64,000 nt of DNA. It comes from Hygrocybe punicea. Its lineage: Eukaryota; Basidiomycota; Agaricomycetes; Agaricales; Hygrophoraceae. The stretch lies in contig OY744472.1 of the NCBI GenBank assembly GCA_963556145.1, positions 4,030,001-4,094,000 on the forward strand, in the 5' to 3' direction. The notes below the pieces were generated by a model. That model did not search any database, was not told the DNA's origin, and saw only the letters and a program-made list of their open reading frames with translations. Both the position numbers and the translations under genes were made by a program. The first letter of the stretch is position 1, and every line of letters begins with the position of its first letter. Positions 3,619 through 60,218 of the stretch are shown here, in pieces.

Positions 3619-3857
3619 ATGATCCGTGGCTACTCATTCCTGGACTGGATGAGTTTGACGGTCCTTTTAGTGGACCAGAAGGGTTTTAGTAACTCAGCCG
3701 ATGAAATATTTATCTATTGGGCGAGGGAAGTCGAGAAGTGGAGTGAGCTAAAAAAACCTGGCCTACGACATCGATTCTGGGAGGAATGTTTTGCGAAGGT
3801 CAGTCTCTCATGTTTCAATTATCATCATGCTAAACTTCGTTGTAGGTCAACCGCTAA
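3619..3857 (+). pseudogene. short two-exon hypothetical coding relic
   Basis: An open frame contains a protein-like stretch (FSNSADEIFIYWAREVEKW, then GLRHRFWEECFAK). It stops at a good splice donor (GAAG|GTCAGT at 3798/3799). A 47-nt GT-AG intron follows, and the next exon hits TAA at once (3855-3857). The composition (W, E, R rich; amphipathic) looks genuinely coding, unlike the surrounding frames, but there is no start context and the product would be very short. It is probably the remains of one exon of a larger gene. Family not recognised. Confidence 0.3.
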
Positions 3858-6800
3858 TTCTTTTCTTTACTGGCATTCATGTACACCGTAGATATTCCGG
3901 AACTCAAGCACTGGACGTGATAACGAATGGCAATTGATATTCCCGCTCAGAGATAAAATCATTGGGTCTCCGTTCAAGACAAGTTCATAACGGCGCAAAG
4001 CGCTCGCATCTCAGTACGAGCAATCAAGAAAGTAAACTATCTGGTAAGGAAATATAAGACACTCTGCAGAGCGAGTAAAATGACAGTGACAAAGGAGTTG
4101 CCAGACATTGTGGAAATTGTCACTGATGATGGCGAATATGTTCTCTTCTGGTCAAACCACCTTGGCATACCGCCTGCTCTATCGTGGTGCTCTCTCTCTC
4201 CCAGACTCCAATCTCCTCCTGGACGGTCTCACCTTTTCAGCCCCAAGCGCTGGCCTCAATCTCCTCCAGAACCCACTCGCCCTCACCCTTGAGAGTATGC
4301 ATGGCCAACCTTGTCTGTCTTTTGTATGCGTTGAGAAGATGCAGGATCTCTGGATGGATTTCAGTGGGGACATTTGCATGTAAGCCCGCCCTTGTTGTGC
4401 TGCTGGAAACTCGTGCCAAATGGAATCATGACAATTTCTGCATCATCTAGGGACATCCACCCACATGCAATCCTCTCCTGTATCTACTTTGAAAACATGT
4501 TCTGTCTATTACCGTGCAAGTCCCTGTCCACTCAGGACAGGCACAGCGAAGTCGGCGTCAGAGTTGCACTCAGTGATGCTACCACCACCTCCAGTGTGTT
4601 TCATTATCCACGCCTGGGTCCCCATGCTACCTGCATTCATTGTCTGCCCCCACAGCATCACCTAGAACAACAGAGATCATAATATACACATGACTTGCCC
4701 CTTCCTCCCCACAAAATATACAGCCACCAGTGCACTGGAACTCTGCGTGGCATGCATAACACCCGATCCACCACCTCTGCGCATCCATCTTCCGCGGCCC
4801 GACGATCCAACACCATGTCGTCCACCTCTCACCTTCAGGGACTCCGCAGTCAAGCGCAGACAGCTTGGAGATGTGGCGAACGGAAATACGGGTGAGAGTG
4901 GAAGCTGTGGACGTGTGGTGCGTGAGCAAACTGGCATTGGACAGCTCGGAAGCGGTGTGTGGGTGGGTGTGGGCGCAGACGTGGTATTCAAGGTGCCAGT
5001 GGTGCCCACAAAAGGCAACGCTCACGTTGGTGTGATGGGGATGAGCATAGCTCAAACTTGAGCATGAGGTGGGTGAGGAATGCTGACGAGGAGATTGAGA
5101 CGGCGAATAAGAGCGTGTGTGCTTTCTCATTGCTCCGGCTGCTTGTGCCTCCCTCACATCACTCATTACAGCTCCTAAAGAAGACTACGGTTGCGCAACT
5201 CGCCATGCATGGGGTAGCTCAGACACACTGAGTTTACAGAACTGTTTGGGTTCATGTACCAGGGTGCAGCGTTTGCCTTGGTGCGTTATGTTCCTCTTGG
5301 CGGTTGCCTTCATCACCCTATATTTTTTCGGTGGTCATGAACCTTCACCCAGGCCATCGTCATTGGCTCATGGCATTGCCACCGCTGTTGCGTTCATTGG
5401 CTCGTTGGCCAACTGGGTGGTTGAGGGGGGTTAGTGGTGATGGCGTGTCACAGAGTGATTGTAGATATAAGTAGATATAAGTAGATATAACAAAAAAGCA
5501 CATACCTTTCGCAGCGGAGGTGGGTGCACCACCCTCCGCTGCACCCCTCGCCATTTCCGTCACCCACCATCACCTCACCCATCGCCGTTCTTCGTTTCCG
5601 AGGTCCATCCTCCGTTTCTGTGGACAATGGTGTGGGTGTTTGCATTCACATTCACGGGTGCATTGGTGATGGCATTAATGTGTGGCTGTTGACTTTGGCG
5701 TGGGCAGGCGTTGGGTGCTAGTAGGTTGTGTAGTAGTTAGTAGATGTACAAGTTTTAAAAAAACTTACTTTTGGCAGCTGGGGTGGTGCACATCCCCTGA
5801 TGTTCCCTTTCCCTTGTTTGGGGCTGATTTGTTTGTCATGACGCCTTGGTGGTTGACAGGAGACAGGTGGTTGTGATTGCTTTGAGAAGTGTGATCACTT
5901 TTGCCAAACAAGGTTACATGGTCCGTTGTCGTCGTTACCTGCACACACCGTTACTAATATTAACATTATCATCTTAAAAAACACCCAGTCAGGCCCTAGT
6001 TGTATCACTGTGGTCGTTGCAGCCAGCCCCCTGCTCGTTCTGGTCATCCACGTCATGCTGGTCATCAAGGTTACCCTCGAAGGCACAAGCGCACACCATT
6101 CGACGTAAACAAGTCATCTGGTGTGTGGATTATGGCAAGCGTGACATACCTGTGGGCACACCACCCCCAGCCTTCCTCGTCTCCCTTGTCGTCTTCTTCC
6201 CTGTCATCTTCAAGTTGTGTGTTCTTCATCTTTGTAGTCCGAGTCGTCATTGTGGTCGAAGTTACTTATTACAACTTGAAGTACTTTATTTAGCTTTGGC
6301 CATGGACTGACGCTGTCTTCAATTTAGGTCAGGAACTTCAAGCCAGGACAGCGACACTTGCAGTTGTGCGGTGCAACCATGACCTTACCACACAGCTAAC
6401 AGGGCGGAAAGAACAGCTCAGCTGGTTGATCCAATTTATCAACAATAATGCTGTGTTAACCAAGGTTCCGATTATTTTGTTCGAATTCATTATGCTCTGC
6501 TGATTGTTTGGGCCGTAGATCTCGCCAAGGAGTAGGCAACTGATGCAGATGCAATGGGTCCCATGAGGCCCATCACAGATCCAAGCAGCTTTAGCATTCT
6601 GAGGCCTGAAGCTTGCTGACCGCAACTCCATTATTTTTGAGTGGTCATGTCGAAAAGTATTGGATTCTATTTAATTATAGCTGTTAGTCTTTGCTTTCAA
6701 ATAGTTGGGACTGGGTTTTTCTTCGCTTGCTAATAGAACGTAGGCCATGAAATATTTTCATCAGTGAAAGAGGGACTTGTTGGCATTTCTGACTCATTTC

Positions 6801-45164: not shown

Positions 45165-46572
45165 TGTCATGACCCCAAGTGTTTTTGGGTGTAATGTCAT
45201 GGGTTTACCATCGGACCACGGACTTAGATATTTAAGTGCAACACTATGGATGCACACCTACACTCATTAGTACCCATTCTATGCCTTTCCACATTACGCA
45301 TGCTAGTGAACAGACACAAATAGCATATATGCTTACCTTTATATCATTTATTATGGCTTCACTAGTAATGCCCAGACCTAGCCGTTTATGTATGGTGCAC
45401 AGAGGCACATCCCCCACTCATTAGTATTTATTATATATTTCTCTGTATTGCGCGTGCAAGGAGACAAGCCCAACTAGCATTGTTACCTATATTAGCAATA
45501 ATGGATTGATTACAAATCTTGTTTACTTGTATTGATCAAAAGCGGCTCAGCTAGATAATGGGAAATGATTAGATAAGATGTGAACAAGAGGATGATAAGA
45601 TAATGATAAGATAGGATGCATCAGAGAGTGATTGTGATATTCTGCTTACATAAAGACAATGGTCTATTGTTCTGAGCAGTCTATTGTTCTAAACAGTCCA
45701 AATGGAGATAGAGCCCATTGTTCACAGCCTCTTTGATGCCATCCATTGTTCTCATGACTCAGTCCTATTGTTCTCACTTTCCCATTGTTCTCAGTCCCCC
45801 ATTGTTCTCCAACAGTATAAATAGGGCCCCCAAATTCCAGTAGTCAGTAGGATTTCCCCCCTCACCACTCAGTAGTCACTCTCAGTTGGGTTCACACAGT
45901 GTGATCCCTCATTCTCTTAGTACTAGTAGTTACTCATTGTAGTAGCTAGTGCTTGCAATCCAGTCTAGTTCACTCTTATTCTATCATTCCCTGAGTTCCC
46001 CTTGTCATCAAGGAGAATTCACCCAGTTCACTCAGTTCAATCAATTCATTAGTCAGCATTAGTCAGCTAGATACATTTCTAAGGTTAAGGTTTCATCCTA
46101 AATAGATACACTTCTAAGGTTAAGGTTTCATCCTAAACAAAAAACAGAGTATTCAAAAGGTATTAAAGATATCCCTGAACTAGTAGCCAATGTGCGTTTG
46201 AAGCTTCGGATTTAAGTCAGATATTATAATACCCAGAGATACTCTTGATTGAATAGGCCCTGTAGCCAAAACTGTCCATATTCAACTGGTGAATATTGTT
46301 ATCAGTATTCATTAGTTCATATTTTTATATTCTAGTAGTGAATATTAGTATTTTCAGTACATCACACACCCAATTGCTATTCATACCTACTCAAAGTCTC
46401 AATTCTTAATTGAAGAGACCTCACTATTACATTCTATTGATTCATATAGTACATATACCCACAAACCCCTTCCTGATAGGTTATTTAGATATTAAAAACC
46501 CACGAACAACAAGAAGATACCTGAACAAAGTCAACTCCGGTAATTCTTGGTGAAACAAACATTCACATAACA
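45165..46572 (+). repeat. 5' LTR of the gypsy element
   Basis: 1,408 bp. Same length as the 3' LTR, and I saw no difference in the stretches compared. It contains the U3 promoter region described separately and a duplicated TTTCTAAGGTTAAGGTTTCATCCTAAA-like segment at 46074-46136. A short ORF at 45236-45424 recurs in the other LTR and is not a gene. Confidence 0.95.
45666..45824 (+). promoter_or_regulatory. U3 promoter: seven ATTGTTC sites plus TATA box
   Basis: Seven copies of ATTGTTC(T/A) start at 45666, 45683, 45717, 45745, 45767, 45784 and 45801, followed at once by TATAAATAG (45816-45824). The complement AACAAT is the core recognised by SOX/HMG-box proteins, so a fungal HMG-box activator is a reasonable guess. 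The same cluster is in the 3' LTR (59312-59470). Confidence 0.65.
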
Positions 46573-46576
46573 AAAT

Positions 46577-46593
46577 TGGAGCCCACCGCGAGG
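46577..46593 (+). promoter_or_regulatory. candidate primer-binding site
   Basis: TGGAGCCCACCGCGAGG begins 4 nt after the 5' LTR, the position expected for a tRNA 3'-end complement starting TGG. I cannot name the tRNA. Confidence 0.55.
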
Positions 46594-46639
46594 ATTTTTA
46601 ATCCAAATAACCCAAGTATTTCTATACCTCTAATACACA

Positions 46640-49600
46640 ATGTCCACAAGCACCAGTACTCGTACCCCAGACATGATGCCCCTGCTAGGGCAGAAGTCTG
46701 CCCCAGCTAAATTCAAAGGAAGCTATGAAGAAGTCAAGAGATTCTTAAGGCATTACAATCAAATGTGCAAATCCTATGCTGTTTCTGATAAAGAGAAATG
46801 TGAAAGGATTGTAGATTACTGCTCCACCAAAGTAGTCAAGCTCATTGAAGCCCTGGAGAGTTACATATCCCAGGACTGGAATACTCTTGAGAAAGATATT
46901 ACTCGCTACTTTGATGCTGCCCTAAAGGAAACAAGATACATTGTTAGAGATCTCATGACCCTTGCACGCATTTGGAAACTTAAGCAGATTAGAACTCTCA
47001 CCAAATGGAAGCAATATGAACGCAGGTTCATTACTATTGCAGGATGGTTAGAGAGCAAGAAGAAGATCTCTGCAGATGAAAAGGCTGCATACTTCTGGCA
47101 TGGAATCAACAAGAACCTCAGACATATCATTGAGACACGTCTCAACACTGGATCAACACCTTTAGATGTCACATCTCCATTCCCTATGAAAGATGTCATT
47201 AAGGTTGCAGAAACTCTATTTGAAAGGAATAGGTTTGACATGAATCTAGCAGATTCAGATTCAGATATACCAGGAAGACTAGACAACTCTGTTTCAGAAG
47301 ACTCTGATACAGATGATTCATCAGAGTATGATACAGATAGTGACTATGAAGCCTGCATCAAGAGAAAGAAAGCTAACAAGAAGAAGAAGGCATTCAAATC
47401 CAAGGCATATGATTCAGATGATGAACTATTTAAGAAGACAGTAAGGAAAGAAACTGAGAAGAAAGATAATGGCAGGAAGGGGATAGACAGGAAGTCTACC
47501 TCCACATCATCATCACACCAGAATGAAGTAGAGTCTTTAATCAAGCAAATGGGAAAGCTTTCTTTGGATGATATTAAGTATGGACTAGCATACTATAGAG
47601 CCTTGAAGCTAGATCCAGACATTGCTCACTGTATTAGCCCACCTGAGTTGAAACAACCTCAGCAAAAGCAAGCACAGTCACAGCAAACACAAAGACCTCC
47701 CTTCAAAATCTCAGCTGCCAATAGTGTTGGCCTTCCACCAAACCCTTCTACTAGTTCGTTTACCCCTACCAATTCGTTTACTCCTTCCAATGAACAAAGA
47801 GGACCCATGACCTGCTATGGTTGTGGAGGACAAGGACATGGAATGCAAACATGTTTCCAAATAAATGAATTACTCAAGACAGGCAAGATAACCAAGGATG
47901 GTCTTGGAAGGATTGTTTATCCAGATGGCTCAATAATTCGCAGAAATATGGGTGAGACATTTGTACAAGCAATTGATAGACATGTAGCTGAAAAGGCCAG
48001 CAATGTCCAGTCACACTTCTATGTATTACAAGATCAATTCTCTGATTACTATCAATCTGATGCTGAAGAAGATTTTGAAGCATATACTATACCTACAATC
48101 AAGGAAGAAGAAATACAAATCCTGCCTGCAGTCAGAGGACCACAGAAAATTGGTGCAGCAAGGAAGGAAGTATTAGATGGAGTATATCCTCCCACAGGTA
48201 TTAAGGCCAAAGGAAAAGAGAATATAAGGCCTAATACAGTACTGCCACCCATTCCTAAAGGCCCAGTCAAACCCGGCCCTCTTTCAGCACAGAAGCAAGC
48301 TCAAGCACATGTACCCGCACCATTACCTTTTGCTCTCAAGAAGACAAACCCATTCCATCCTACAGAAGATCTGCATACAAAACAACCTGTTCCAATGGAT
48401 ATAAGAGCCCCAATACATATTCCTTCAGACACAGATTCAGATGTGGAGATGATAGATCCTTCTCCAACAAAGCCAGCCAAGACTCATATACAAGGACACA
48501 AGGCAAACATAGATAAGAACAAGATCATGGCTGAAAGACATAATGCCATAACTCGTCCAAAGCCCACTCCCAGACAATCTGAAATTTCAGTCAATATTGG
48601 AGAAACTCAAGTTGTCAATCAAATCCTTGACACACCAGTTACCCTGCGCGTTCGTGAAGTATTAGCTTCTTCCAAGGAATTATCTGAGCAATTAACAGAC
48701 ATGATCAAGAGAAAGAATGCAAAGGTATCTGCCATTGCAAGCTCATTCATAACCAAGGATCGTGGAGTGTTAATCAGGCTTCAGATGGAATGTGATAGAA
48801 GACCTATTGAAGCCATCATTGACACTGGATCCCAGTTAAATGTGATTAGTAAAAAAGTCTGGAAAGAAATTATCCAAAGACCTATGGATGTAGGAAAAAT
48901 TCTCACAATGAATGATGCTAATGGAGGCGAAGGAACATTAAAAGGATTGGTCTCAGAAGTTCCATTGACTTGTGGTGGTGTCCTTACCTATGCCAATCTT
49001 TACATAGGAGAGACAGTGCCATTTGATTTATTACTTGGAAGACCATGGCAAAGAGGCAACTATGTTTCTATTGATGAAAGAATAGATGGTACATATTTAG
49101 TATTCAAGAATCCTGAAGATTTGACAAACAGATTTGAACTAATGGTCACACCAAGCCATTCTCAAGTTAATCACATCAGAGGAGCTACTACTGCCCATGC
49201 CTCAACATCCTATTTATGCACTTTACCTATGGAACTTGAAGAAACCACTACAATTCCTTTAACTAAGTCTTATGAACAAAATAAGGCATTAGTCCGCTAT
49301 AATCCGCAATTTCAAACTCCGCTTAAACCGAATTATTTTACCGAAATGATTACATGCTTACAGGATAAGTCTTATTTGGATAAGGATAAGTCTGAAGTAA
49401 AAGGAGATAAAAGTATCTCATGCTTCAATATCCCCAAAAATGCATATGATGGCTCGAAACTTTTTGCATTGTCCATAGCCCATTGTGATGACATGAACAA
49501 TGAAGAATCTGAATTTTCTAAAAGGAGAAAGATAAGAAATGGATTTTCACACCAGGGAAATTTAGATAGGAATTGCTATAAAAACTCTGAAGAAATGGGA

Positions 49601-52600
49601 GAGACAGTAGCCATGTCTGCTGCACAAACCCCCCAGATCCCACCTTTTATGATCAATAACCACCCTCTTCCTCTCCCTGTAGAAGGGATCCACTCCAATG
49701 GTCATCCAGATGCTGGCCGACTTATCACTTCCTTTTTGGGAAATTCCCTTGATTACCAATCTCCCCATTTAAGTAAATTTTTGATTGCTGCCACTGTAGG
49801 ATATAGGCTTTCTCCGGGGATTGATTCCCTTGGTGTTCCTTTTGAGCACGGAATTTTATTAAATGCTTCTCTAGCTACAATAAATTCTCCAAGTGTCCCC
49901 CCCTCTTTAAGGATGGGACATTTAGTTTTTCAATTTTACCCATTTGCTAACCCTTCTACTGAGGAGAACTTTTCTCCTCCCCCTGTCCCTCCTCCTTACA
50001 TAGAGGACTTTTATTCTTTCCCAGTGACCACTCGTGACCCTCGCACGCGCCCCGGCGACATTATTCCGCCCTTAGAACCGCCCCGTAACCCCATTAACTT
50101 ACCGGTCACGCGGATTCCCACGGTTGGCTCTTCTGTCCCCACTATCACGCTCACTGGCGAGGACGACCGCGAATCGTTGTTGACCAACGACGAGGCGCGC
50201 GGTTGGAGCCCAATCGAAGGCTGGGAATGGGACTACGAGGTGGGAAAGATCCCGCTTCATCTGTTCACTGACAAACGACTTCCACTACAGTACACGGAGC
50301 GTGGCCGTAGATGCCCCTCCCTGACTACTACCATGCCTCCGGAAAATACTTCGACCCTCGCAGATGGTACCATGGACCTTTCCGCGACCACGGACAGCAA
50401 TTTCTTTCATTTCCGGGGATCCGAAGTCCACTCAACGGCCCCCACCAATGACATTCACCATTCCGCCCTCGACATCAGCCGCGACCTGTTCGAACATACA
50501 GATCGTGACGGATACGAGGCAGGTGATGAAGGGGAAGTAGAATGGCCAGGTTGCACGGTGTGTACTAGGCACCCCGCTCACGAAAAATGCCCGGATTTTA
50601 CCTCACTCACGAAAAAGCCTTCTTTTGACGATTATACGGCCCCGGCGGCCACCGTTCAGCTCGCAATACGCACGGAACCCATGAACGGCCACAACGCCAT
50701 CCCTGATAGTGACCTCCTCGACGTTATTATCCCCACTTCTCCGCGCGCGCCGTTAGTTGCATCCCTCCTCGAATCCACTAACTATATACCGGCAAATCAT
50801 GAACGTAGCGCCCCGGCGGCGCTCGTTTATGACCACGGACTCCCACCTGGTCTCAATATGCCGCTTGATGCCCATTTACGCGACACTTCGCCCGGTCTCA
50901 TCAATCACTACCCCACTTCCGCGAAAACCCCTGAATTTGTTTTCCCTGCTGATGACGACTGGGACTGGCCCGTCGGCCAGGTCAGATATATCAACCCCGT
51001 CGTGCTCGAACCGCCCCGCATGCTTTACAACCACGCAGAGGTAAATTACGCATTTCCACCCCCTCCTCATGCCGAATTGGGACGCGAGCCGATTTCCCGG
51101 CCCCCCAGCGATCCGGACCTCTTATCAGACGTCTCCAACCATGCCACCCCTGGTTCCGATGTAGGAAACATTTGGTTCCCTGCTACTTCTTATTTGCCTA
51201 CTCCCCCTTTTACCCCCTTTAATAGTAGTGAAAATTTTGTACCTTTAGTCTCTAGCTCCCCTTCCATGTCTTTTGATGATCTATATGGTGATTTAGAATA
51301 TTCTCCTAAGTCTCCTATCTTTGAGGAAATTTTGCCAGATTTAAATAATAATAGTGATAATTATTTATATTCTTCAAATAAATACATAGATATTAAAAAT
51401 ACTTCTATGTCTGTAGATTCTCAATCATCTTCTTCTGTTTATTCTGGGAGTGACTCTGAAAATAAGGCTGTCAAGATCCTAAGCCCCAAACCAGATCCAC
51501 TCACCATCATTATTCCTCATACCACTTCCATAAATTCATCTCTACCTCAGCCTTATCAGGAACCTGGATCTAGGACTAGACCTATCAGTGTGTCCTCTTC
51601 TGAGGACATTAATTCATCTTCTGATGAATCCATGGACACAGACTCAGATGAAGAATTAGAATGGTTCGCTTGGACTAGGTCTGATTCCCCAGATTCAGAA
51701 GCAATAACAGAATTTAATTCAGACCTCAGTCAGGCCATTGAAGAAGCCCAGCAGCCGCTCGATTCCCCTCCAGGCTTGATATCGCTTTCGCCTACACCAC
51801 CCCCACTTGAAGATATACCTTTGTTACAATTGCCACCTGTCTCAGACAATACTTGGTCCTTGCCAGAGGGTGAGGAAATCAATACCCCCTCTGATGAATA
51901 TGCCAGACTTCCATTTGATCGTGCCAATGCCTTAAATGCAGGAGAACGCATTTCGCCCTTATTTCCCTCCAAGGATCCCAGATCCCCATTTAGTGTCAGA
52001 TCAGGCCCATTATATCCAGAATCCAATCTACTCACTCAGCTTCGCATGGAAGCACCTCCTATTCGCCCTCAATCACCCATTCAAGTGTATTCCTTCACCA
52101 TCTCCAATGCTGGCTCCTCTCATCAGGACTTAGCTGCTGCAAGAATCTTAACAGCTGAGCCAGACCACATGTCTACATTTGATGTTCACATCAGTTTCCT
52201 CAAAGCTATTAGAGGATCCTTGGTTGAAGGCATTCGCAGAATTGGATTCAAGCTAGCCACCCCTGACTGGAGGGCCCTCATCAATGAAAGGCCTTCAAAT
52301 GACCCCGTCCGCTATTATTTCAACCACAAGTGTTTACTATTTCGGTTTCTGGAAGAAGGAGTTTCTGAAGGACTACCTGAACCTGCAACAGAGCATTTTA
52401 GGCCCCTTCACTTCACAGAGTCAAACCCTCTCCTTGAAGAAGAAGAAATCACCTTCCTCAAAAATTCCTCTATCATCTTTCGCTCCAATCGCCGCATGTT
52501 ACTCTCTGATGCTATCAATGCAGTCTTGGATATGCGCTTTCGCCGCCCTGAAGCAGTGGCAGATTTGCTTAAGGAAGGATATTTTGATCCTCCCAAATAT

Positions 52601-52621
52601 CACAAGTCCACAATTACTTAG
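46640..52621 (+). CDS. gypsy ORF1: giant Gag-protease polyprotein (1,993 aa)
   Basis: Starts at ATG in ACACAATGTCC. Residues about 20-200 form a retrotransposon Gag capsid-like helical domain (FKGSYEEVKRFLRHYNQMC ... EKAAYFWHGINKNLRH). An acidic/Lys stretch follows, then one zinc knuckle CYGCGGQGHGMQTC near residue 392. The retropepsin motif IEAIIDTGSQLNVIS is near 727 (Asp-Thr-Gly), with LLLGRPW near 800. From about 870 to the end is an unusual 1,100-residue Pro/Ser/Asp-rich, probably disordered extension, with a possible extra Cys/His group (CTVCTRHPAHEKC). The DNA at 50030-51170 is much richer in CpG than the rest. It ends 338 nt inside the next ORF. Confidence 0.93.
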   Translation: MSTSTSTRTPDMMPLLGQKSAPAKFKGSYEEVKRFLRHYNQMCKSYAVSDKEKCERIVDYCSTKVVKLIEALESYISQDWNTLEKDITRYFDAALKETRYIVRDLMTLARIWKLKQIRTLTKWKQYERRFITIAGWLESKKKISADEKAAYFWHGINKNLRHIIETRLNTGSTPLDVTSPFPMKDVIKVAETLFERNRFDMNLADSDSDIPGRLDNSVSEDSDTDDSSEYDTDSDYEACIKRKKANKKKKAFKSKAYDSDDELFKKTVRKETEKKDNGRKGIDRKSTSTSSSHQNEVESLIKQMGKLSLDDIKYGLAYYRALKLDPDIAHCISPPELKQPQQKQAQSQQTQRPPFKISAANSVGLPPNPSTSSFTPTNSFTPSNEQRGPMTCYGCGGQGHGMQTCFQINELLKTGKITKDGLGRIVYPDGSIIRRNMGETFVQAIDRHVAEKASNVQSHFYVLQDQFSDYYQSDAEEDFEAYTIPTIKEEEIQILPAVRGPQKIGAARKEVLDGVYPPTGIKAKGKENIRPNTVLPPIPKGPVKPGPLSAQKQAQAHVPAPLPFALKKTNPFHPTEDLHTKQPVPMDIRAPIHIPSDTDSDVEMIDPSPTKPAKTHIQGHKANIDKNKIMAERHNAITRPKPTPRQSEISVNIGETQVVNQILDTPVTLRVREVLASSKELSEQLTDMIKRKNAKVSAIASSFITKDRGVLIRLQMECDRRPIEAIIDTGSQLNVISKKVWKEIIQRPMDVGKILTMNDANGGEGTLKGLVSEVPLTCGGVLTYANLYIGETVPFDLLLGRPWQRGNYVSIDERIDGTYLVFKNPEDLTNRFELMVTPSHSQVNHIRGATTAHASTSYLCTLPMELEETTTIPLTKSYEQNKALVRYNPQFQTPLKPNYFTEMITCLQDKSYLDKDKSEVKGDKSISCFNIPKNAYDGSKLFALSIAHCDDMNNEESEFSKRRKIRNGFSHQGNLDRNCYKNSEEMGETVAMSAAQTPQIPPFMINNHPLPLPVEGIHSNGHPDAGRLITSFLGNSLDYQSPHLSKFLIAATVGYRLSPGIDSLGVPFEHGILLNASLATINSPSVPPSLRMGHLVFQFYPFANPSTEENFSPPPVPPPYIEDFYSFPVTTRDPRTRPGDIIPPLEPPRNPINLPVTRIPTVGSSVPTITLTGEDDRESLLTNDEARGWSPIEGWEWDYEVGKIPLHLFTDKRLPLQYTERGRRCPSLTTTMPPENTSTLADGTMDLSATTDSNFFHFRGSEVHSTAPTNDIHHSALDISRDLFEHTDRDGYEAGDEGEVEWPGCTVCTRHPAHEKCPDFTSLTKKPSFDDYTAPAATVQLAIRTEPMNGHNAIPDSDLLDVIIPTSPRAPLVASLLESTNYIPANHERSAPAALVYDHGLPPGLNMPLDAHLRDTSPGLINHYPTSAKTPEFVFPADDDWDWPVGQVRYINPVVLEPPRMLYNHAEVNYAFPPPPHAELGREPISRPPSDPDLLSDVSNHATPGSDVGNIWFPATSYLPTPPFTPFNSSENFVPLVSSSPSMSFDDLYGDLEYSPKSPIFEEILPDLNNNSDNYLYSSNKYIDIKNTSMSVDSQSSSSVYSGSDSENKAVKILSPKPDPLTIIIPHTTSINSSLPQPYQEPGSRTRPISVSSSEDINSSSDESMDTDSDEELEWFAWTRSDSPDSEAITEFNSDLSQAIEEAQQPLDSPPGLISLSPTPPPLEDIPLLQLPPVSDNTWSLPEGEEINTPSDEYARLPFDRANALNAGERISPLFPSKDPRSPFSVRSGPLYPESNLLTQLRMEAPPIRPQSPIQVYSFTISNAGSSHQDLAAARILTAEPDHMSTFDVHISFLKAIRGSLVEGIRRIGFKLATPDWRALINERPSNDPVRYYFNHKCLLFRFLEEGVSEGLPEPATEHFRPLHFTESNPLLEEEEITFLKNSSIIFRSNRRMLLSDAINAVLDMRFRRPEAVADLLKEGYFDPPKYHKSTIT
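50030..51170 (+). other. CpG-rich island inside gypsy ORF1
   Basis: Within an AT-leaning, CpG-poor ORF this ~1.1-kb block switches abruptly to G/C-ending codons and frequent CG (for example CGCACGCGCCCCGGCG near 50042, CCGCGCGCGCCG near 50740), then back near 51170. The reading frame is continuous across both borders. Encodes part of the disordered extension. Suggests late acquisition or special sequence constraint. Confidence 0.7.
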
Positions 52622-55600
52622 TGATTTGTTTACTCTTGCAACAATATTTTTGCCCCTATGTCAAACCTCTCTTCTTTATATCTGTCTGTACTACATTTTA
52701 TTACTTGATGTGATAGTGTACAAGTTTATATTTTCAAAGACTATTCAGGATTTGACATCCTTAGCCAGCCCTAGTATACCTGTGTACAAACAAACTGAAC
52801 TGACAAATATAACTTCTGTCAGACTGTATGAAGAGGACCCTCAAAATTCTAAGCATGAAGATAAGCCACTAGAACAATTCAGTGTATACTATGAGACTAT
52901 TAAGGATAGCCAAGAAACAACTATGCCTATTTTAGTCTACCCAGAAGATGAAGACAATCAAGATTACAATCTTAATGAAGTACCAAATAAGCAAGAAAGT
53001 GCCTCAGAAGAAGCAGACTATTACTACATTATAGGAGAAGGAACCTTAATATGTGAAGAAGGAGACATTCTCATATTCCCTTGTGAAGAAACAGATAGTC
53101 AAGGATATCCATTAACACTTACAGCTTACAAAAGAGTGGACAAGAAAATAAATCCTGTCCCTGGAACCTTTCCAGAAGATGCACGTGTTACAAGGAAATT
53201 TCCCTATGACCCTCTTTCCACATTACCACCACTTCCTATGATACCACCAGACTTCATACCTACAGAGAAGCTTACATCTGAACGTCTGAAGATACTCAAG
53301 ATAAACAATGATGGATTTCTTTGGCCAGAAGAAGAAAAATTATTTACTCACCTCTTGTCACTTAACCAAGATGCTATTGGCTTTGAAGATACTGAAAGAG
53401 GCACACTTAAGGAATCTTACTTTTCACCATACATCATCCCTACTGTCCCACATGTACCCTGGGCATTTCGAAATATTCCTATACCACCAGGACTTAGAGA
53501 AAAAGTCATGGATGTTTTGAAGAGAAAAATAGATGCTGGTGTATATGAACCAAGTCAATCCTCTTATAGGTCAAGATGGTTTTGTGTAAGCAAGAAGGAT
53601 GGAAAACTTCGTATAGTCCATGATTTGCAACCTCTCAATGCAGTTACAATACGTGATGCAGGCCTTCCTCCAATACTAGATGAATTTGTAGAACCTTTCG
53701 CTGGTCGCCAATGCTATACAGTCTTCGATTTACTATGGGGATTTGATGCTAGGAAAGTACATCCTACATCTCGTGACCTCACTGCATTCATGACACCACT
53801 GGGATTACTTCGTCTCACATCACTTCCCACTGGATTCACAAATTCACCTGCAGAATTCCAACGTTGTATGTGCTTCATCCTTCAAGATGAAATCCCTCAT
53901 ACTGCAAATAGCTTCATTGATGATTTACCTATAAAAGGACCTTCATCCATTTATCCTGATCAAGACGGAAGACCAGAAGTTTTACTAGAAAATCCAGGAA
54001 TCAGAAGGTTTATTTGGGAGCACGCTCAAGATGTACATCGCATTATGCATCGCCTTGCTTGTGCAGGAATGACAATATCAGCTAAGAAGACACAACTTTG
54101 CCGCTCAAGTGTCGTGATCGTAGGACAGAAATGCACTCCGGAAGGACGTTGTCCTGATGATAGTAGAGTACAAAAGGTTTTGGACTGGCCCCCACTCAAG
54201 ACTCCCAAGGATGTTAGAGGCTTCCTAGGTCTCTGTGGAACAGTTCGCATTTGGATAGAAAATTATTCTGCACTAGCCAAGCCACTAGCAGAGTTATTCC
54301 ATAAAGGAGCAGAGTTTATATGGGATGAAAGAAGACAAGCAGCTTTCCAGGCATTGAAAGAAAAGGTTTCTTCAGCACCTGCACTCCGCTCTATTGATTA
54401 TACATCAGATAGACCCACATATTTATCAGTAGACAGTAGCCATATTGCTGCCGGTTTTATTTTATCACAAGAAGATGAAAATGGAAATCGTCGCCCTGCT
54501 AGATATGGTTCAATACCAATGAGTGAAAGAGAATCCAGATATTCACAGCCAAAACTGGAGTTATATGGACTATACCGCGCGTTACGCCACTGGAGACTGT
54601 ATTTAATAGGAATAAAGAATTTACATATAGAGGTAGATGCCAAGTTTATAAAAGGCATGCTCAATGAACCGGATTTACAACCTAATGCAGCCATAAACAG
54701 ATGGATTCAAGGAATTTTATTATTTGACTTCAAACTTATTCATGTACCTGCAACCCAGTTTAGGGGACCAGATGCACTTTCTCGCAGAGAACTTGCAGAT
54801 AATGAAGAAATTGAAAAGCATGATGATTCATGGCTAGATGATATTGCCTTGCTTGTTCATGTTCCTGATCCACATGAAATAAGAAAATTTAGCTTCACTG
54901 TCCCTACCAAATTGCCATACAAGGCCATCACACTCCTTTCAAATAATGAAATTAAATTACAACAGGACAAGATACTCATTCAAGTAAAACATTTTTTATC
55001 CACATTGGAAATGCCTTCAACAGATACCTTGCAGGCAAGAAGAAGATTTCTGAAGAAAACTGGACAATTTTATTTAAAAGATGATAAACTGTTTAGAAGA
55101 AATGGCCAGAAAATGCCTTCATTAGTGATTATGAATGCAAAGAAAAGAATCGCCATTCTCACTCAAGCTCATGAAAACTTAGGTCATAAAGGAGAACAAG
55201 CTGTGTTTGACTTAGTCAAACTTCGATTTTTTTGGCCTCATCTCAGAGCAGATGTCCATTACCACATTTCATCATGTCATCAGTGTCAAATTAGGAGCTT
55301 GAAGAAAATCGAAATTTCCCCTACAATTTCTACCCCTACAGCAATTTTTCAAAAGGTATACATTGATGTAATGTTTATGCCACCTTCAGGAGGCTACCAT
55401 TTCATTGTAGCAGCACGTGATGATTTATCAGGAGCAACTGAAGTAAAAGCTCTAAGATCAAACAATTCACACAACTTAGCAAAATTCTTCTGGGAACAGA
55501 TCTATTGTCGCTATGGTGCCATTGAACATGTAGTTACTGATAATGGAGGAGAAGTCAAAGGAGCATTTGAGTCTCTGCTTAGAAGACTAGGAATTCCTCA

Positions 55601-56732
55601 GGTTCGCATATCACCCTACAATAAGCATGCAAATGGTGTAATAGAAAGAGGACATTTTACTCTACGTGAAGCCATAGTCAAGTCCTGTGAAAAAGATAAG
55701 ACTGGAAAAATCAAGAATTGGCACAAGCACGTAGAGTTAGCATCATTTGCAGACCGAATTACAGTCAGCAGTGTTACTGGATACTCACCTTATTATCTAC
55801 TCCATGGCACTCATCCTATACTTCCCTTTGACCTAACAGAAGCCACATTTATGGTTGAAGGTTTTTGCTCAGGACTTTCTACATCAGATTTGTTAGCACT
55901 CCGCATACGTCAGCTTGGAAGACATCAAGAAGATATTGATAAAGCAGCAGCTGTGCTTAAACAGGCTCGCTTCATATCTAAATTGCAATTTGATCAGAGA
56001 TTTCATAGACGATTGCAAAAACGTGATTATCAGCCAGGAGAACTAGTTCTAGTATATAATAGTCGTTTGGAGATGACTATAGGAAAATTCAAGACAGACC
56101 CTCGTTACCTTGGCCCATATGAAGTTGTCAGACAAACAAGAAGAGGAACTTATGTTTTAAAAGAATTAGATGGTGCTGTGCATGCTGAGCATTATGCAGC
56201 ATTTCGGATTTTACCATACATTTATCGAACTGACCCTATCCTTTATGAAATAGCAGACCAGGAAGATGAAGCTGCTGAAGTAGAGGATTGCTCAGTAAAT
56301 CAGTTAATATCTCTTAAATCAGGAGACATCACAGATATTATTCTTGCCATCAAGCCAGAATTTGCTGCACACATTGCATCACGCACAAAGAATTTTGAAT
56401 TTAGAAAATATCAAGTTCCAGCCACTGTCTGTCACATGTGGCTTTATGAAACAACGCCAATCAGTTCCATTACAGGTGTCATTACAGTTGGTTCAGTAAA
56501 AATACCAGGAGAAGTCAATGACCCCTCAGGTCTTGGCAATGATGACTTTGATGCAGGTTTAAAGTTGTCAAAATATGGTTATCCTATATATCATCTTCAT
56601 CAGTTACCAGTGCCACTATCTGCAGATTTACTCCAGAAAAGATACAATACCATTATTCCTCACCGCTATTGTATAGCCCCATACTCATTCATTCAAGAAT
56701 TTCCTTTTTCTGCATTGATTCCGATATTCTAG
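52284..56732 (+). CDS. gypsy ORF2: RT-RNase H-integrase with C-terminal ASCH-like domain
   Basis: Overlaps ORF1 by 338 nt in the +1 frame, so it is probably made by frameshifting; true Pol sequence starts after about 52620. RT motifs: RWFCVSKKDGKLRIVHDL, YTVFDLLWGFDA (Asp), LPTGFTNSPAEFQR, NSFIDDLPIKG (FIDD). RNase H: TYLSVDSSHIAAGF, SQPKLELYGLYRALRHW, IHVPATQFRGPDALSR. Integrase: HENLGHKGE..CHQC zinc site, YIDVMFMPPSGG (D), VTDNGGEVKGAF (D), NKHANGVIERGH (E), then the GPY-type module YLGPYEVVRQT. Instead of a chromodomain, residues about 1345-1455 read ILAIKPEFAAHIASRTKNFE, FRKYQ, WLYETTPISSITGVITVG and SKYGYPIYHLHQLP, the pattern of an ASCH (PUA-like) fold. Confidence 0.92.
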   Translation: MKGLQMTPSAIISTTSVYYFGFWKKEFLKDYLNLQQSILGPFTSQSQTLSLKKKKSPSSKIPLSSFAPIAACYSLMLSMQSWICAFAALKQWQICLRKDILILPNITSPQLLSDLFTLATIFLPLCQTSLLYICLYYILLLDVIVYKFIFSKTIQDLTSLASPSIPVYKQTELTNITSVRLYEEDPQNSKHEDKPLEQFSVYYETIKDSQETTMPILVYPEDEDNQDYNLNEVPNKQESASEEADYYYIIGEGTLICEEGDILIFPCEETDSQGYPLTLTAYKRVDKKINPVPGTFPEDARVTRKFPYDPLSTLPPLPMIPPDFIPTEKLTSERLKILKINNDGFLWPEEEKLFTHLLSLNQDAIGFEDTERGTLKESYFSPYIIPTVPHVPWAFRNIPIPPGLREKVMDVLKRKIDAGVYEPSQSSYRSRWFCVSKKDGKLRIVHDLQPLNAVTIRDAGLPPILDEFVEPFAGRQCYTVFDLLWGFDARKVHPTSRDLTAFMTPLGLLRLTSLPTGFTNSPAEFQRCMCFILQDEIPHTANSFIDDLPIKGPSSIYPDQDGRPEVLLENPGIRRFIWEHAQDVHRIMHRLACAGMTISAKKTQLCRSSVVIVGQKCTPEGRCPDDSRVQKVLDWPPLKTPKDVRGFLGLCGTVRIWIENYSALAKPLAELFHKGAEFIWDERRQAAFQALKEKVSSAPALRSIDYTSDRPTYLSVDSSHIAAGFILSQEDENGNRRPARYGSIPMSERESRYSQPKLELYGLYRALRHWRLYLIGIKNLHIEVDAKFIKGMLNEPDLQPNAAINRWIQGILLFDFKLIHVPATQFRGPDALSRRELADNEEIEKHDDSWLDDIALLVHVPDPHEIRKFSFTVPTKLPYKAITLLSNNEIKLQQDKILIQVKHFLSTLEMPSTDTLQARRRFLKKTGQFYLKDDKLFRRNGQKMPSLVIMNAKKRIAILTQAHENLGHKGEQAVFDLVKLRFFWPHLRADVHYHISSCHQCQIRSLKKIEISPTISTPTAIFQKVYIDVMFMPPSGGYHFIVAARDDLSGATEVKALRSNNSHNLAKFFWEQIYCRYGAIEHVVTDNGGEVKGAFESLLRRLGIPQVRISPYNKHANGVIERGHFTLREAIVKSCEKDKTGKIKNWHKHVELASFADRITVSSVTGYSPYYLLHGTHPILPFDLTEATFMVEGFCSGLSTSDLLALRIRQLGRHQEDIDKAAAVLKQARFISKLQFDQRFHRRLQKRDYQPGELVLVYNSRLEMTIGKFKTDPRYLGPYEVVRQTRRGTYVLKELDGAVHAEHYAAFRILPYIYRTDPILYEIADQEDEAAEVEDCSVNQLISLKSGDITDIILAIKPEFAAHIASRTKNFEFRKYQVPATVCHMWLYETTPISSITGVITVGSVKIPGEVNDPSGLGNDDFDAGLKLSKYGYPIYHLHQLPVPLSADLLQKRYNTIIPHRYCIAPYSFIQEFPFSALIPIF

Positions 56733-58009
56733 CACCTTTGGTGACTGAATATTCAGTTATATCCAAGACCCCTATCCCTCATGTGATTTCCCGCTGCACA
56801 CCCTCTTTTTCTATGCCCCATGCATTTTTATTGGCCGCTATTTTTACCTATGCACATGATTTCCCGTCACGCACCCTTTTTTTATGCTATCTAAACTGAT
56901 TGGATAAATTTTATTTGTTTTATGATTTGCTGGTCATTTTTAAGTCAGACATGCAAAGAAAATATATATAACGCTACAAAGTGATAATACAACCCCTCTC
57001 ATCTAATAGTTGACGGACCCATTATATGAATACAATGATAATATATATAAAAGACATAACGAAACGTAACGAAACGAAACGAAACGAAACGAAACGAAAT
57101 GAAATGACAAGACATAATGAAATAGAAAATAGAATAAAAGGAAATACAACTGGTGTATGAATAGAAAGATAAAGAAATGGACGAACGACCGGTGACCCTC
57201 CACTCCCAGTAGTCCAGCAACTGAGTCCCACCCGAAAAAATATAGCGCTCGCCCCTAGTTGAAACGGAGTGATGCTCAACATCACCCCCGGCCCATCCAT
57301 CCTCCAGACGAATTCGTTGTCAAACGATTGCAGCAGATAGTAGTAAGGAACGGCTAGATTTAGACCGTCTTATCTACATGCCAATTATTCAGTAATGGTG
57401 AAAATTGAATATAAATATAAGAAGTTACTTAGCGGTTTGGTTTTTCTTGAGTTTTTCTTGAAGGGAGGATGGAGTGACCATTCATAGCGTCGGATAGATT
57501 TTTTTACGATTTATTGCATAGTGGCATAGCAAGAAAAAGGAGTGGAGCACTACAGAACCATAGTGGCAGACTAGAGGAAAGAAAAGACGGATCGTGCAAA
57601 TGTACAGCTATGACCCTGGAAAACACGTGACCGGCACATGTTTTCTCATGTGACCTGAGTAAACGGTCTAGACCAAATAAGCATTGGTACTATTGCAGAT
57701 CTGTACCCGATACAGCTTCAAGACCCTGAAGAACCAAGGGAATGGTAAAATCCCGATTTGATCAATCATACAACCTTAAATCGAATTTGAAATACATCAT
57801 CCCAATATAGCAAGGCCAGGGCTAGTTTAGTTCTGGACCCACAGGGACCTATTGTGACACAATGTCCCACATTAGTATTGCTTGACCCACCATTCCGGTT
57901 CCCCCACAAATATTTTCCCTTAACGTCTCCTGTTACATCAACTGCACCGCTATTCCGCTCAGCGCTTCAGCACTACCAGACGCCCATATACCGTAATCCA
58001 TATCATACT
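56733..58009 (+). other. gypsy 3' untranslated region with GAAAC pentamer run
   Basis: 1.3 kb between pol and the extra ORF with no credible gene. A run of ACGAAA pentamer-type units (ACGAAACGAAACGAAACGAA, about 57058-57105) is present; elsewhere nothing recognised. Confidence 0.6.
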
Positions 58010-58576
58010 ATGACATCATACTCCAGTCCTTCACCTTCTCCATCTATGGATATTCCTCTACGCCGTCTCGATTTATCACGCTTATTCGATACTCCCACCG
58101 AATACGATACGGACTTTTTTACCAAACCAACTAGTCCCGCTCAGACACCACCGCTACCCCCTTCGGAATCTGACGAATACATCGATTTCGAATCTGTGAA
58201 CGTACGAGGTGTTGACTGTCCGCCGCCAGACGATTTCGACTTTTTCATGGATAGTCTTCCCAACTTTCCTATGCCACCCGCCACCGTCCCTTCGCAATCT
58301 GTACCCTTAGACCCGGAGTTTAGAGAATGGCTCGAATCGCCTCCTTCATTTTCCACAAATCGTAACCACCCAACTTCCTCTCGCCGCAATCGTTTCGAAC
58401 GCCCTGCAATTCCGGCATTACTTCCTAAGCCGCTACAAAAGAAGCGCACTCGCCCTAAGTACCACCTCAAGGCGCTACTAAATGCTACGAAGAAGAACAT
58501 GGATCGGTTAAAGGCAGAAGGAGTTGATGTACAAGATTGGGAGGAATTCTTGGGAAAGATGAAGAAGAAGTTATAA
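58010..58576 (+). CDS. gypsy accessory ORF3 (188 aa), unknown
   Basis: First in-frame ATG at 58010 (MTSYSSPSPSPSMDIPL); the frame is open upstream without a start. The protein has an acidic/proline-rich front (FDTPTEYDTDFFTK, DCPPPDDFDFFMDSLPNF) and a basic helical end (QKKRTRPKYHLKALLNATKK, EEFLGKMKKKL). No signal peptide or membrane segment, so it is not envelope-like despite its position between integrase and the 3' LTR. CpG-rich codon use resembles the island in ORF1, not the neighbouring pol. Function unknown. Confidence 0.6.
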   Translation: MTSYSSPSPSPSMDIPLRRLDLSRLFDTPTEYDTDFFTKPTSPAQTPPLPPSESDEYIDFESVNVRGVDCPPPDDFDFFMDSLPNFPMPPATVPSQSVPLDPEFREWLESPPSFSTNRNHPTSSRRNRFERPAIPALLPKPLQKKRTRPKYHLKALLNATKKNMDRLKAEGVDVQDWEEFLGKMKKKL

Positions 58577-58810
58577 GAATAGTAATAATGTAAAAGCTTC
58601 TTCTCAGATTAAAAAGTTGTTTTCTTTTGGTTTCAACTGGGGACAGTTGATTTAATTGTGTTGTGCGGAGTACGAGATTGGGAGGAATTCTTTGGAAAGA
58701 TGAAGAAGAAGTTAAAAGAATAGTAATAATGTAAAAGCTTCTTCTCAGATTAAAGAGTTGTTTTCTTTTGGTTTCAACTGGGGACAGTTGATTTAATTGT
58801 GTTGTGCGGA
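58535..58810 (+). repeat. 141-bp tandem duplication abutting the 3' LTR
   Basis: 58535-58675 and 58676-58810 are near-identical, covering the last codons of ORF3, its stop and trailer. The second copy ends exactly at the LTR. I see no ordinary polypurine tract before the LTR; the closest is ACTGGGGACAG, present in both copies. Confidence 0.9.
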
Positions 58811-60218
58811 TGTCATGACCCCAAGTGTTTTTGGGTGTAATGTCATGGGTTTACCATCGGACCACGGACTTAGATATTTAAGTGCAACACTATGGATGCA
58901 CACCTACACTCATTAGTACCCATTCTATGCCTTTCCACATTACGCATGCTAGTGAACAGACACAAATAGCATATATGCTTACCTTTATATCATTTATTAT
59001 GGCTTCACTAGTAATGCCCAGACCTAGCCGTTTATGTATGGTGCACAGAGGCACATCCCCCACTCATTAGTATTTATTATATATTTCTCTGTATTGCGCG
59101 TGCAAGGAGACAAGCCCAACTAGCATTGTTACCTATATTAGCAATAATGGATTGATTACAAATCTTGTTTACTTGTATTGATCAAAAGCGGCTCAGCTAG
59201 ATAATGGGAAATGATTAGATAAGATGTGAACAAGAGGATGATAAGATAATGATAAGATAGGATGCATCAGAGAGTGATTGTGATATTCTGCTTACATAAA
59301 GACAATGGTCTATTGTTCTGAGCAGTCTATTGTTCTAAACAGTCCAAATGGAGATAGAGCCCATTGTTCACAGCCTCTTTGATGCCATCCATTGTTCTCA
59401 TGACTCAGTCCTATTGTTCTCACTTTCCCATTGTTCTCAGTCCCCCATTGTTCTCCAACAGTATAAATAGGGCCCCCAAATTCCAGTAGTCAGTAGGATT
59501 TCCCCCCTCACCACTCAGTAGTCACTCTCAGTTGGGTTCACACAGTGTGATCCCTCATTCTCTTAGTACTAGTAGTTACTCATTGTAGTAGCTAGTGCTT
59601 GCAATCCAGTCTAGTTCACTCTTATTCTATCATTCCCTGAGTTCCCCTTGTCATCAAGGAGAATTCACCCAGTTCACTCAGTTCAATCAATTCATTAGTC
59701 AGCATTAGTCAGCTAGATACATTTCTAAGGTTAAGGTTTCATCCTAAATAGATACACTTCTAAGGTTAAGGTTTCATCCTAAACAAAAAACAGAGTATTC
59801 AAAAGGTATTAAAGATATCCCTGAACTAGTAGCCAATGTGCGTTTGAAGCTTCGGATTTAAGTCAGATATTATAATACCCAGAGATACTCTTGATTGAAT
59901 AGGCCCTGTAGCCAAAACTGTCCATATTCAACTGGTGAATATTGTTATCAGTATTCATTAGTTCATATTTTTATATTCTAGTAGTGAATATTAGTATTTT
60001 CAGTACATCACACACCCAATTGCTATTCATACCTACTCAAAGTCTCAATTCTTAATTGAAGAGACCTCACTATTACATTCTATTGATTCATATAGTACAT
60101 ATACCCACAAACCCCTTCCTGATAGGTTATTTAGATATTAAAAACCCACGAACAACAAGAAGATACCTGAACAAAGTCAACTCCGGTAATTCTTGGTGAA
60201 ACAAACATTCACATAACA
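58811..60218 (+). repeat. 3' LTR of the gypsy element
   Basis: 1,408 bp, direct repeat of 45165-46572, with the same ATTGTTC cluster (59312-59454) and TATAAATAG (59462). Followed by target duplication TCGG. Confidence 0.95.

Follow-up and report, generated by a model that had tools for sequence, protein, structure and literature searches.

Long terminal repeat (LTR) retrotransposons of the Ty3/gypsy group are already known to carry accessory domains, and the chromodomain, dUTPase and AlkB found in such elements have served as pointers to barriers in the host or to routes of targeting. ASCH domains, which have a PUA-like fold, are known from other settings. ZmASCH, the closest solved relative of the domain considered here, cuts single-stranded RNA in vitro (PMC5615036), and ASCH domains of the kind encoded in phage and plasmid loci are predicted to bind modified DNA, their frequent fusion to helix-turn-helix (HTH) domains being read as a hint of this activity (PMC7641849). 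Here an ASCH domain is described at the end of Pol in an LTR retrotransposon of Hygrocybe punicea, located in a 64,000-nt stretch of contig OY744472.1 (4,030,001 to 4,094,000), hereafter the window, in whose positions the coordinates of the element are given. As stated in the initial annotation of this DNA, no retrotransposon clade with such a fusion appears to have been described: none was found in the open-licence full text searched, long result lists being followed at the top only, and ASCH was not found there as an accessory domain of Ty3 elements. Papers joining the terms 'ASCH domain' and 'retrotransposon' were, in the portions available, on unrelated subjects.

ASCH as a portable module of Ty3 elements

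The window element is a Ty3/gypsy retrotransposon, as initially annotated, with identical LTRs, the order reverse transcriptase (RT), ribonuclease H (RNase H) and integrase (IN), and Ty3 as the nearest solved RT. The best Protein Data Bank (PDB) match of its Pol is Ty3 Gag-Pol (7q5b, 9e-43 over residues 416-849), and the prototype foamy virus (PFV) integrase (3oym) matches residues 937-1192 (3.9e-17). In the host genome (92.2 Mb in 42 contigs, denoted by C-numbers) the Pol tail has at least 151 matches, some copies being in several pieces; by hand count of matches, at least 22 copies of the window family keep the 1,491-aa frame, and at least 31 copies of a second ASCH-bearing family, also counted by hand, keep frames of 1,435-1,451 aa. 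This second family is a chromovirus, 27% identical to the window element in RT and 23-24% in the integrase core, and in the one copy scanned (L009) Pol ends in a chromodomain (PF00385, 1.1e-10) followed by ASCH. The metagenome Pol P0002 shares the arrangement of the window Pol, the ASCH domains being 65-68% identical, and a second metagenome Pol, P0003, has ASCH between a dUTPase (2.8e-39) and integrase. Judged by eye, fragments P0019 and P0038 resemble P0003 in that ASCH follows a dUTPase-like end, P0027 runs from a chromodomain-like end into ASCH, and P0068 passes from an RNase-H-like end directly into ASCH. ASCH, which takes three different arrangements among complete Pols and a fourth one in a fragment, is a portable accessory module of Ty3 elements. 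The dUTPase and ASCH of P0003 adjoin each other between RNase H and integrase; some lentiviruses keep a dUTPase between these two enzymes.

Within the host genome the window element has its closest relatives in L025, L026, L029, L030 and L034 (Pol of 1,413 aa), which are 78% identical to it in RT and 84-86% in the integrase core over three aligned copies, and their similarity to the window Pol stops at residue 1329-1346, where a short acidic tail takes over. A distant sister family (L027 and L032; Pol of 1,257 aa, RT 58% identical for L027) also has a short acidic tail. Searches with tblastn found no ASCH in the 9.9 kb stretches of the five closest sister copies or in the distant family. No chromodomain was seen by eye in the seven sister tails, on which Pfam was not run, and Pfam at E up to 1 detected none in the window Pol, which lacks the chromodomain after integrase that distinguishes chromoviruses. 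The initial description of ASCH as standing in place of a chromodomain misdescribes the history, because the sister tails show neither domain; replacement is ruled out, as the nearest sister has neither domain and the chromovirus family has both.

Derivatives of these elements also occur. In L014 (2079-7055), L015 (2725-7728) and L028, which lie on C2, C40 and C34, Gag-PR continues in frame into the integrase C-terminus and ASCH, and RT and the integrase core are missing; the whole junction is present at three places in the genome, with a single frame through ASCH in two of the three. The single frames of L014 and L015 are 1,659 and 1,668 aa long and lack RT and the integrase core (Pfam on L014). 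Window-family Pol pieces lie within open frames of 2,666 and 3,364 aa at L020 (490-8487, - strand) and C35:421689, which are perhaps fused or nested insertions that have stayed open. Chromovirus copy L009 has a third frame of ~288 aa (3668-4534, - strand) whose overlap with the end of Pol is ~20 nt, with similar frames in L012 and L018; Pfam found no match in that of L009.

Identity and selection of the domain

The proposal that the Pol tail is a PUA-like ASCH domain has held up well, ZmASCH being its best match by sequence and by fold search. The profile of PHROG 3136 matches most of the domain significantly, and that of PDC-M11B matches its first half (5.6e-13). A fold search against viral models returned proteins of phages and giant viruses with ASCH-like folds; among the 50 hits listed, none of those bearing a name was a retroelement. 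NCBIfam contributed no model for the domain. P1367, K1378, E1381, R1383 and Y1397 are invariant across 13 aligned sequences ranging from phage to element, and the K-x-x-E-x-R core with its following Tyr, common to remote kin, is present.

Selection was assessed as the Nei-Gojobori ratio of nonsynonymous to synonymous divergence (dN/dS) among eight chromovirus copies, whose 28 pairs are not independent. The ratio was 0.02 for RT, 0.03 for RNase H, 0.04 for integrase, 0.02 for the integrase C-terminal domain (CTD), 0.03 for the chromodomain, 0.18 for the linker and 0.16 for ASCH. The dS values were 0.68 for ASCH, 0.60 for the chromodomain, 0.65 for the CTD and 1.09 for RT, and the ASCH dN of 0.111 was 4-9 times that of RT, RNase H, integrase, CTD and chromodomain. 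In these copies 76 of the 120 ASCH columns are invariant, including the K, E, R and Y of the presumed pocket. The chromovirus ASCH is under purifying selection and is evolving faster than the enzymatic core. Within the window family the ASCH ratio was 0.18-0.58 over four pairs with few changes, the pair at 0.58 having six.

Proposed fungal origin and spread

A profile search found 66 proteins, 45 of which, by hand count, are short, lack RT and come under the name of a fungal species, the others being metagenome pieces. The host has a stand-alone gene of this fungal ASCH family, in two pieces at C3:300104-300703 that show 59% and 52% identity to the protein of Sphaerobolus; an intron is presumed at SAITYV from the genomic sequence. 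By comparison, the element ASCH coding sequence is intron-free. Apparent unspliced introns in P0021 and P0037 lie close to the place of the host-gene intron. Of 40 stand-alone fungal proteins, three of 43 having been dropped for short N-termini, 26 have a Q-x-[TS]-L motif near the N-terminus (pattern Q[TSALIV][TNS][LI]), against a mean of 0.6 and a maximum of 4 in shuffles; the rows are mutually related. We take the motif to bear a weak resemblance to PCNA-binding motifs, and a strict PCNA-interacting protein (PIP) box is present in 1 of the 40.

In a tree of 69 domains (seven short or odd rows of 76 were dropped), limited by short alignments and long branches, all 14 element-labelled rows lie to the same side of a branch supported at 91/90. 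For seven of these rows the Pol is available, another four come from fragments whose flanks look element-like, and P0005, P0006 and P0013 were labelled by likeness alone. The tree fits a single capture, in which a Ty3 element would have taken up a fungal ASCH coding sequence that later spread from one element lineage to another, a history suggested because the backbones of the elements differ greatly and ASCH is missing from a close sister family. Pattern searches of viral contigs gave 107 matches, none of them confirmed, and one of 36 matches was confirmed in bacterial and archaeal genome contigs, a pattern-bound scan that gives no measure of rarity.

Prokaryotic kin and host methylation background

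The ASCH gene of Streptococcus phage YS162 overlaps a SinI-type restriction endonuclease (REase) gene and lies beside a C5-methyltransferase (C5-MTase) gene, and a C5-MTase gene adjoins the ASCH gene of Leuconostoc pLC22R. Plasmid records with a match are mostly from Enterococcus (39 of 42), and in 16 of the 20 listed, one of which was opened, a SinI REase lies under the match. In lambdoid phages the ASCH gene is annotated as the GevA antitoxin beside the GevT toxin, the pair corresponding to PADLOC PDC-M11B and M11A; the toxin and antitoxin labels are the depositors' own, no paper on them was found in the literature searched, and GevA is remote from the element domain (27% identity, E 4e-3). 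Phage and plasmid ASCH genes adjoining the candidate defence gene PDC-M11A, a restriction enzyme or a C5-methylase were seen in L039 (1447-2875), L040, L041, L044 and L046; the stretches read of phage records MismyG and psiM2 and of Sphingobium and Sinorhizobium plasmids contained no such neighbour. The host is rich in TET/JBP domains, as had been anticipated, with 122 Tet_JBP matches, of which 96 exceed the cut-off as counted by hand, and five DNMT-type matches, all counted per exon and not per gene.

Possible functions

The explanation favoured here, tentatively, is that ASCH binds nucleic acid, DNA in the first place, in a manner sensitive to cytosine modification, and acts in the particle or the integration complex. 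As part of Pol the domain would enter both. K1378, E1381, R1383 and Y1397 may form a nucleic-acid pocket whose ligand would most likely be DNA bearing or lacking modified cytosine, and, cytosine being methylated and oxidised in the host, the element might benefit in how its freshly made cDNA or the chromatin it targets is handled. A position at the end of integrase would not be essential, because P0003 carries ASCH between dUTPase and integrase. Reading of oxidised methylcytosine, one of the roles initially suggested, would be a candidate function that is favoured indirectly by the restriction and C5-methylase surroundings of certain prokaryotic kin and by the predicted binding of modified DNA (PMC7641849). 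A more specific version, in which ASCH is a modified-cytosine reader of the prokaryotic restriction and phage-defence kind that Ty3 elements took from a fungal gene, exchanged between distant lineages and now use to act on the host 5-methylcytosine (5mC) and TET-JBP system at integration, is unlikely taken as a whole.

A number of observations weigh against binding of modified DNA by a captured and shared domain. The window domain scores 14 bits with Pfam ASCH (PF04266), under the curated cut-off of 21.2, which was missed too by ten of ten related sequences scanned and, among prokaryotic kin, was reached by GevA and psiM2 and missed by YS162, Leuconostoc and Sphingobium. The predicted pocket derives from residue conservation and not from model coordinates, and the cleavage of single-stranded RNA by ZmASCH points to RNA. 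The closest ASCH-less sister family, too, has multiple copies in this genome (24 matches at 60-67% identity, eight with 1,413-aa frames; the absence of ASCH was verified by sequence in five, and by eye none of the 24 lies beside an ASCH match), which argues that ASCH is dispensable. The approximately unbiased (AU) test rejected neither a vertical history of ASCH (p 0.0875) nor a tree that places the window element and P0002 beside the host gene (p 0.306); such a placement would imply that they acquired ASCH in a capture of their own. Finally, ASCH identity between distant elements (38-40%) dates nothing, because the bacterial protein L021 is nearly as similar (32-38%); dating the sharing from 40% identity in ASCH against 27% in RT was rejected on this ground.

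Insertion places speak in the same direction. The families were compared by permutation for the share of places lying no more than 1 Mb from the end of a contig, one place per 100 kb being kept. In the unthinned set, 29 of 54 places of the window family and 8 of 24 of the sister family were near ends; in the thinned set the counts were 19/41 and 8/24, with 22/76 for the chromovirus, the uniform expectation being 0.28. The difference between the ASCH-bearing window family and its ASCH-less sister was not significant in this coarse, weak test (permutation p 0.43), which gives no significant support to the steering of integration that had been suggested for the domain. Left out by hand were the row on short contig C37 and the gag-fused C2:7559635, C40:2206727 and C34:1162328 and 1162392; also left out were second pieces of counted copies (C41:778889, C35:4415115, C35:820912), the host gene (C3:300098) and chromovirus rows (C7:6886734, C8:3982326, C40:165395, C39:4640468).

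It is rather unlikely that ASCH instead sanitises nucleotides or cDNA by hydrolysing, inside the particle, a harmful or modified nucleotide or a base in cDNA. The neighbourhood of dUTPase in P0003, P0019 and P0038 would suit such a role, as would the fact that dUTPase also changes place between fungal Ty3 families (PMC2864245), and YqfB is a proven ASCH amidohydrolase acting on N4-acylcytosines (PMC6972931). The active-site Lys and Arg of YqfB correspond to K1378 and R1383 by motif spacing only, YqfB itself standing outside the alignment. By the same spacing, however, the Thr-Lys-Glu triad of a YqfB-type N4-acetylcytidine (ac4C) amidohydrolase is absent, since Glu (E1381 here) and not Thr lies at the position of the nucleophile Thr24 in 13 of 13 aligned sequences. 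In the fold search YqfB, at E 0.12-0.17, also ranks far under ZmASCH and TRIP4, and the prokaryotic contexts examined consist of DNA restriction, candidate defence or unknown genes, not nucleotide metabolism.

An RNA binder or single-strand RNase acting on element RNA, in packaging or in the removal of template or silencing RNA, would follow the example of ZmASCH, whose rank as best match by sequence and fold, together with the retention of its Tyr47, required for binding and cleavage (PMC5615036), as Y1397, is in its favour. It is nonetheless quite unlikely: in the sequence alignment Lys53 of ZmASCH is replaced by Ser (S1403) and Trp15 by Lys, Ser128 falling beyond the aligned stretch; ZmASCH is labelled helix-turn-helix in the PDB, and HTH-ASCH fusions are the very ones taken to hint at modified DNA (PMC7641849); and Pol already has an RNase H. 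Slightly less likely still is a tether by which the integrase tail picks insertion sites through a chromatin partner, in the manner of a chromodomain and without reading modified DNA. ASCH is the last integrase domain in the window family and the chromovirus, the position at which chromodomains act, its fast amino-acid change would suit a changing partner, and the window family does have more places near contig ends than its sister, though not significantly so in that weak test; against this, ASCH and chromodomain occur together in the chromovirus, and P0003 holds ASCH between dUTPase and integrase. Counter-defence, in which kin from phage-defence and restriction loci would shield element nucleic acid from a host silencing factor or block that factor, is highly improbable. 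The PDC-M11B match, the annotated GevT/GevA pair and an elevated ASCH dN at similar dS are in its favour; a remote relation to GevA, labels of the depositors' own making and a dN/dS far under 1 are against it.

Structure of the window element

The element spans 45165-60218 (15,054 bp), its features being collected in Table 1, and its insertion is recent, as the identity of both LTRs indicates. The 4-nt flank TCGG is common to both ends and is a possible target-site duplication. The Gag-PR frame comprises a Gag-like part with a CCHC knuckle, recognised by eye, an aspartyl protease at ~48785-49039 and a Pro/Ser-rich part of ~1,100 aa; its Pfam scores are all below cut-off (Asp_protease_2 8e-4, gag-asp_proteas 0.0018, DUF4100 4e-5). 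The Pro/Ser-rich coding stretch (49040-52621), lying 3' of the protease, is long for a Ty3 element. The SH3_Tf2-1 match in P0002 is likewise sub-threshold (1.5e-4), and in the window Pol ~56 residues, partly acidic, separate the corresponding match from ASCH. Between Pol and the 3' LTR there is a further open frame of 261 aa (57791-58576, + strand) without a Pfam match, the end of which is included in a 141-nt tandem duplication (58529-58810) directly before the LTR.

Table 1. Features of the Ty3/gypsy element in the window
Feature	Position	Strand	Remarks
5' LTR	45165..46572	+	TG...CA, 1,408 nt; same sequence as 58811-60218 over all 1,408 nt
Putative primer-binding-site region	46573..46600	+	directly 3' of 5' LTR, AAATTGGAGCCC...; assigned by position only
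Gag-PR open frame	46634..52621	+	1,995 aa stop to stop; first ATG 46640
Pol open frame	52257..56732	+	1,491 aa; different frame from Gag-PR, which it overlaps
Reverse transcriptase (Pol 445-624)	53589..54128	+	Pfam RVT_1 1.5e-10
RNase H (Pol 689-818)	54321..54710	+	Pfam RT_RNaseH_2 7.5e-21, RT_RNaseH 4.8e-17
Integrase zinc finger and catalytic core (Pol 961-1192)	55137..55832	+	Pfam Integrase_H2C2 1.5e-13
Integrase C-terminal SH3/GPY-type module (Pol 1261-1302)	56037..56162	+	Pfam SH3_Tf2-1 0.013, below cut-off
ASCH domain (Pol 1359-1491)	56331..56729	+	last Pol domain; conserved K1378, E1381, R1383, Y1397, N1428, D1430, F1431
3' LTR	58811..60218	+	1,408 nt; begins TG, ends CA

Comparison with known systems

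The recurrence of ASCH alongside a close ASCH-free sister in the same genome amounts to a natural experiment, with and without the domain, on its benefit to the element. Kin in restriction and phage-defence loci connect fungal retroelements with prokaryotic modified-DNA biology, and a modified-cytosine reader, if such it is, would give Ty3 elements a hand in the host 5mC and TET-JBP system. Among these relatives, ZmASCH of Zymomonas mobilis (5guq/5gus; PMC5615036) is a stand-alone bacterial protein whose Lys53 and Trp15 are not kept in the element, and the PDC-M11B and PHROG 3136 proteins are encoded by separate phage or plasmid genes beside PDC-M11A or a restriction enzyme, whereas the element ASCH is fused to Pol. 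The proteins of Sphaerobolus (P0007), Ganoderma (P0008) and Jaapia (P0012) align with 97-100% of the element domain at 44-50% identity and have the same conserved residues; unlike the element domain, these stand-alone fungal proteins have genes of their own, without RT or integrase. Among elements, the dUTPase of basidiomycete Ty3 retrotransposons is likewise a nucleotide-related accessory domain that moves among Pol positions, although the domain is a different one and ASCH goes unmentioned in the available part of that paper (PMC2864245). Orchid Ty3 elements have similarly acquired a modification-related domain with host homologues, the N6-methyladenosine (m6A) demethylase AlkB, which differs in being a separate open reading frame, in a plant host, and an RNA demethylase of shown activity (PMC9289625). 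Chromoviruses, of which the second ASCH family is one, likewise bear an accessory domain at the integrase C-terminus; the window element differs from them in having no chromodomain, and its ASCH domain is of another fold.
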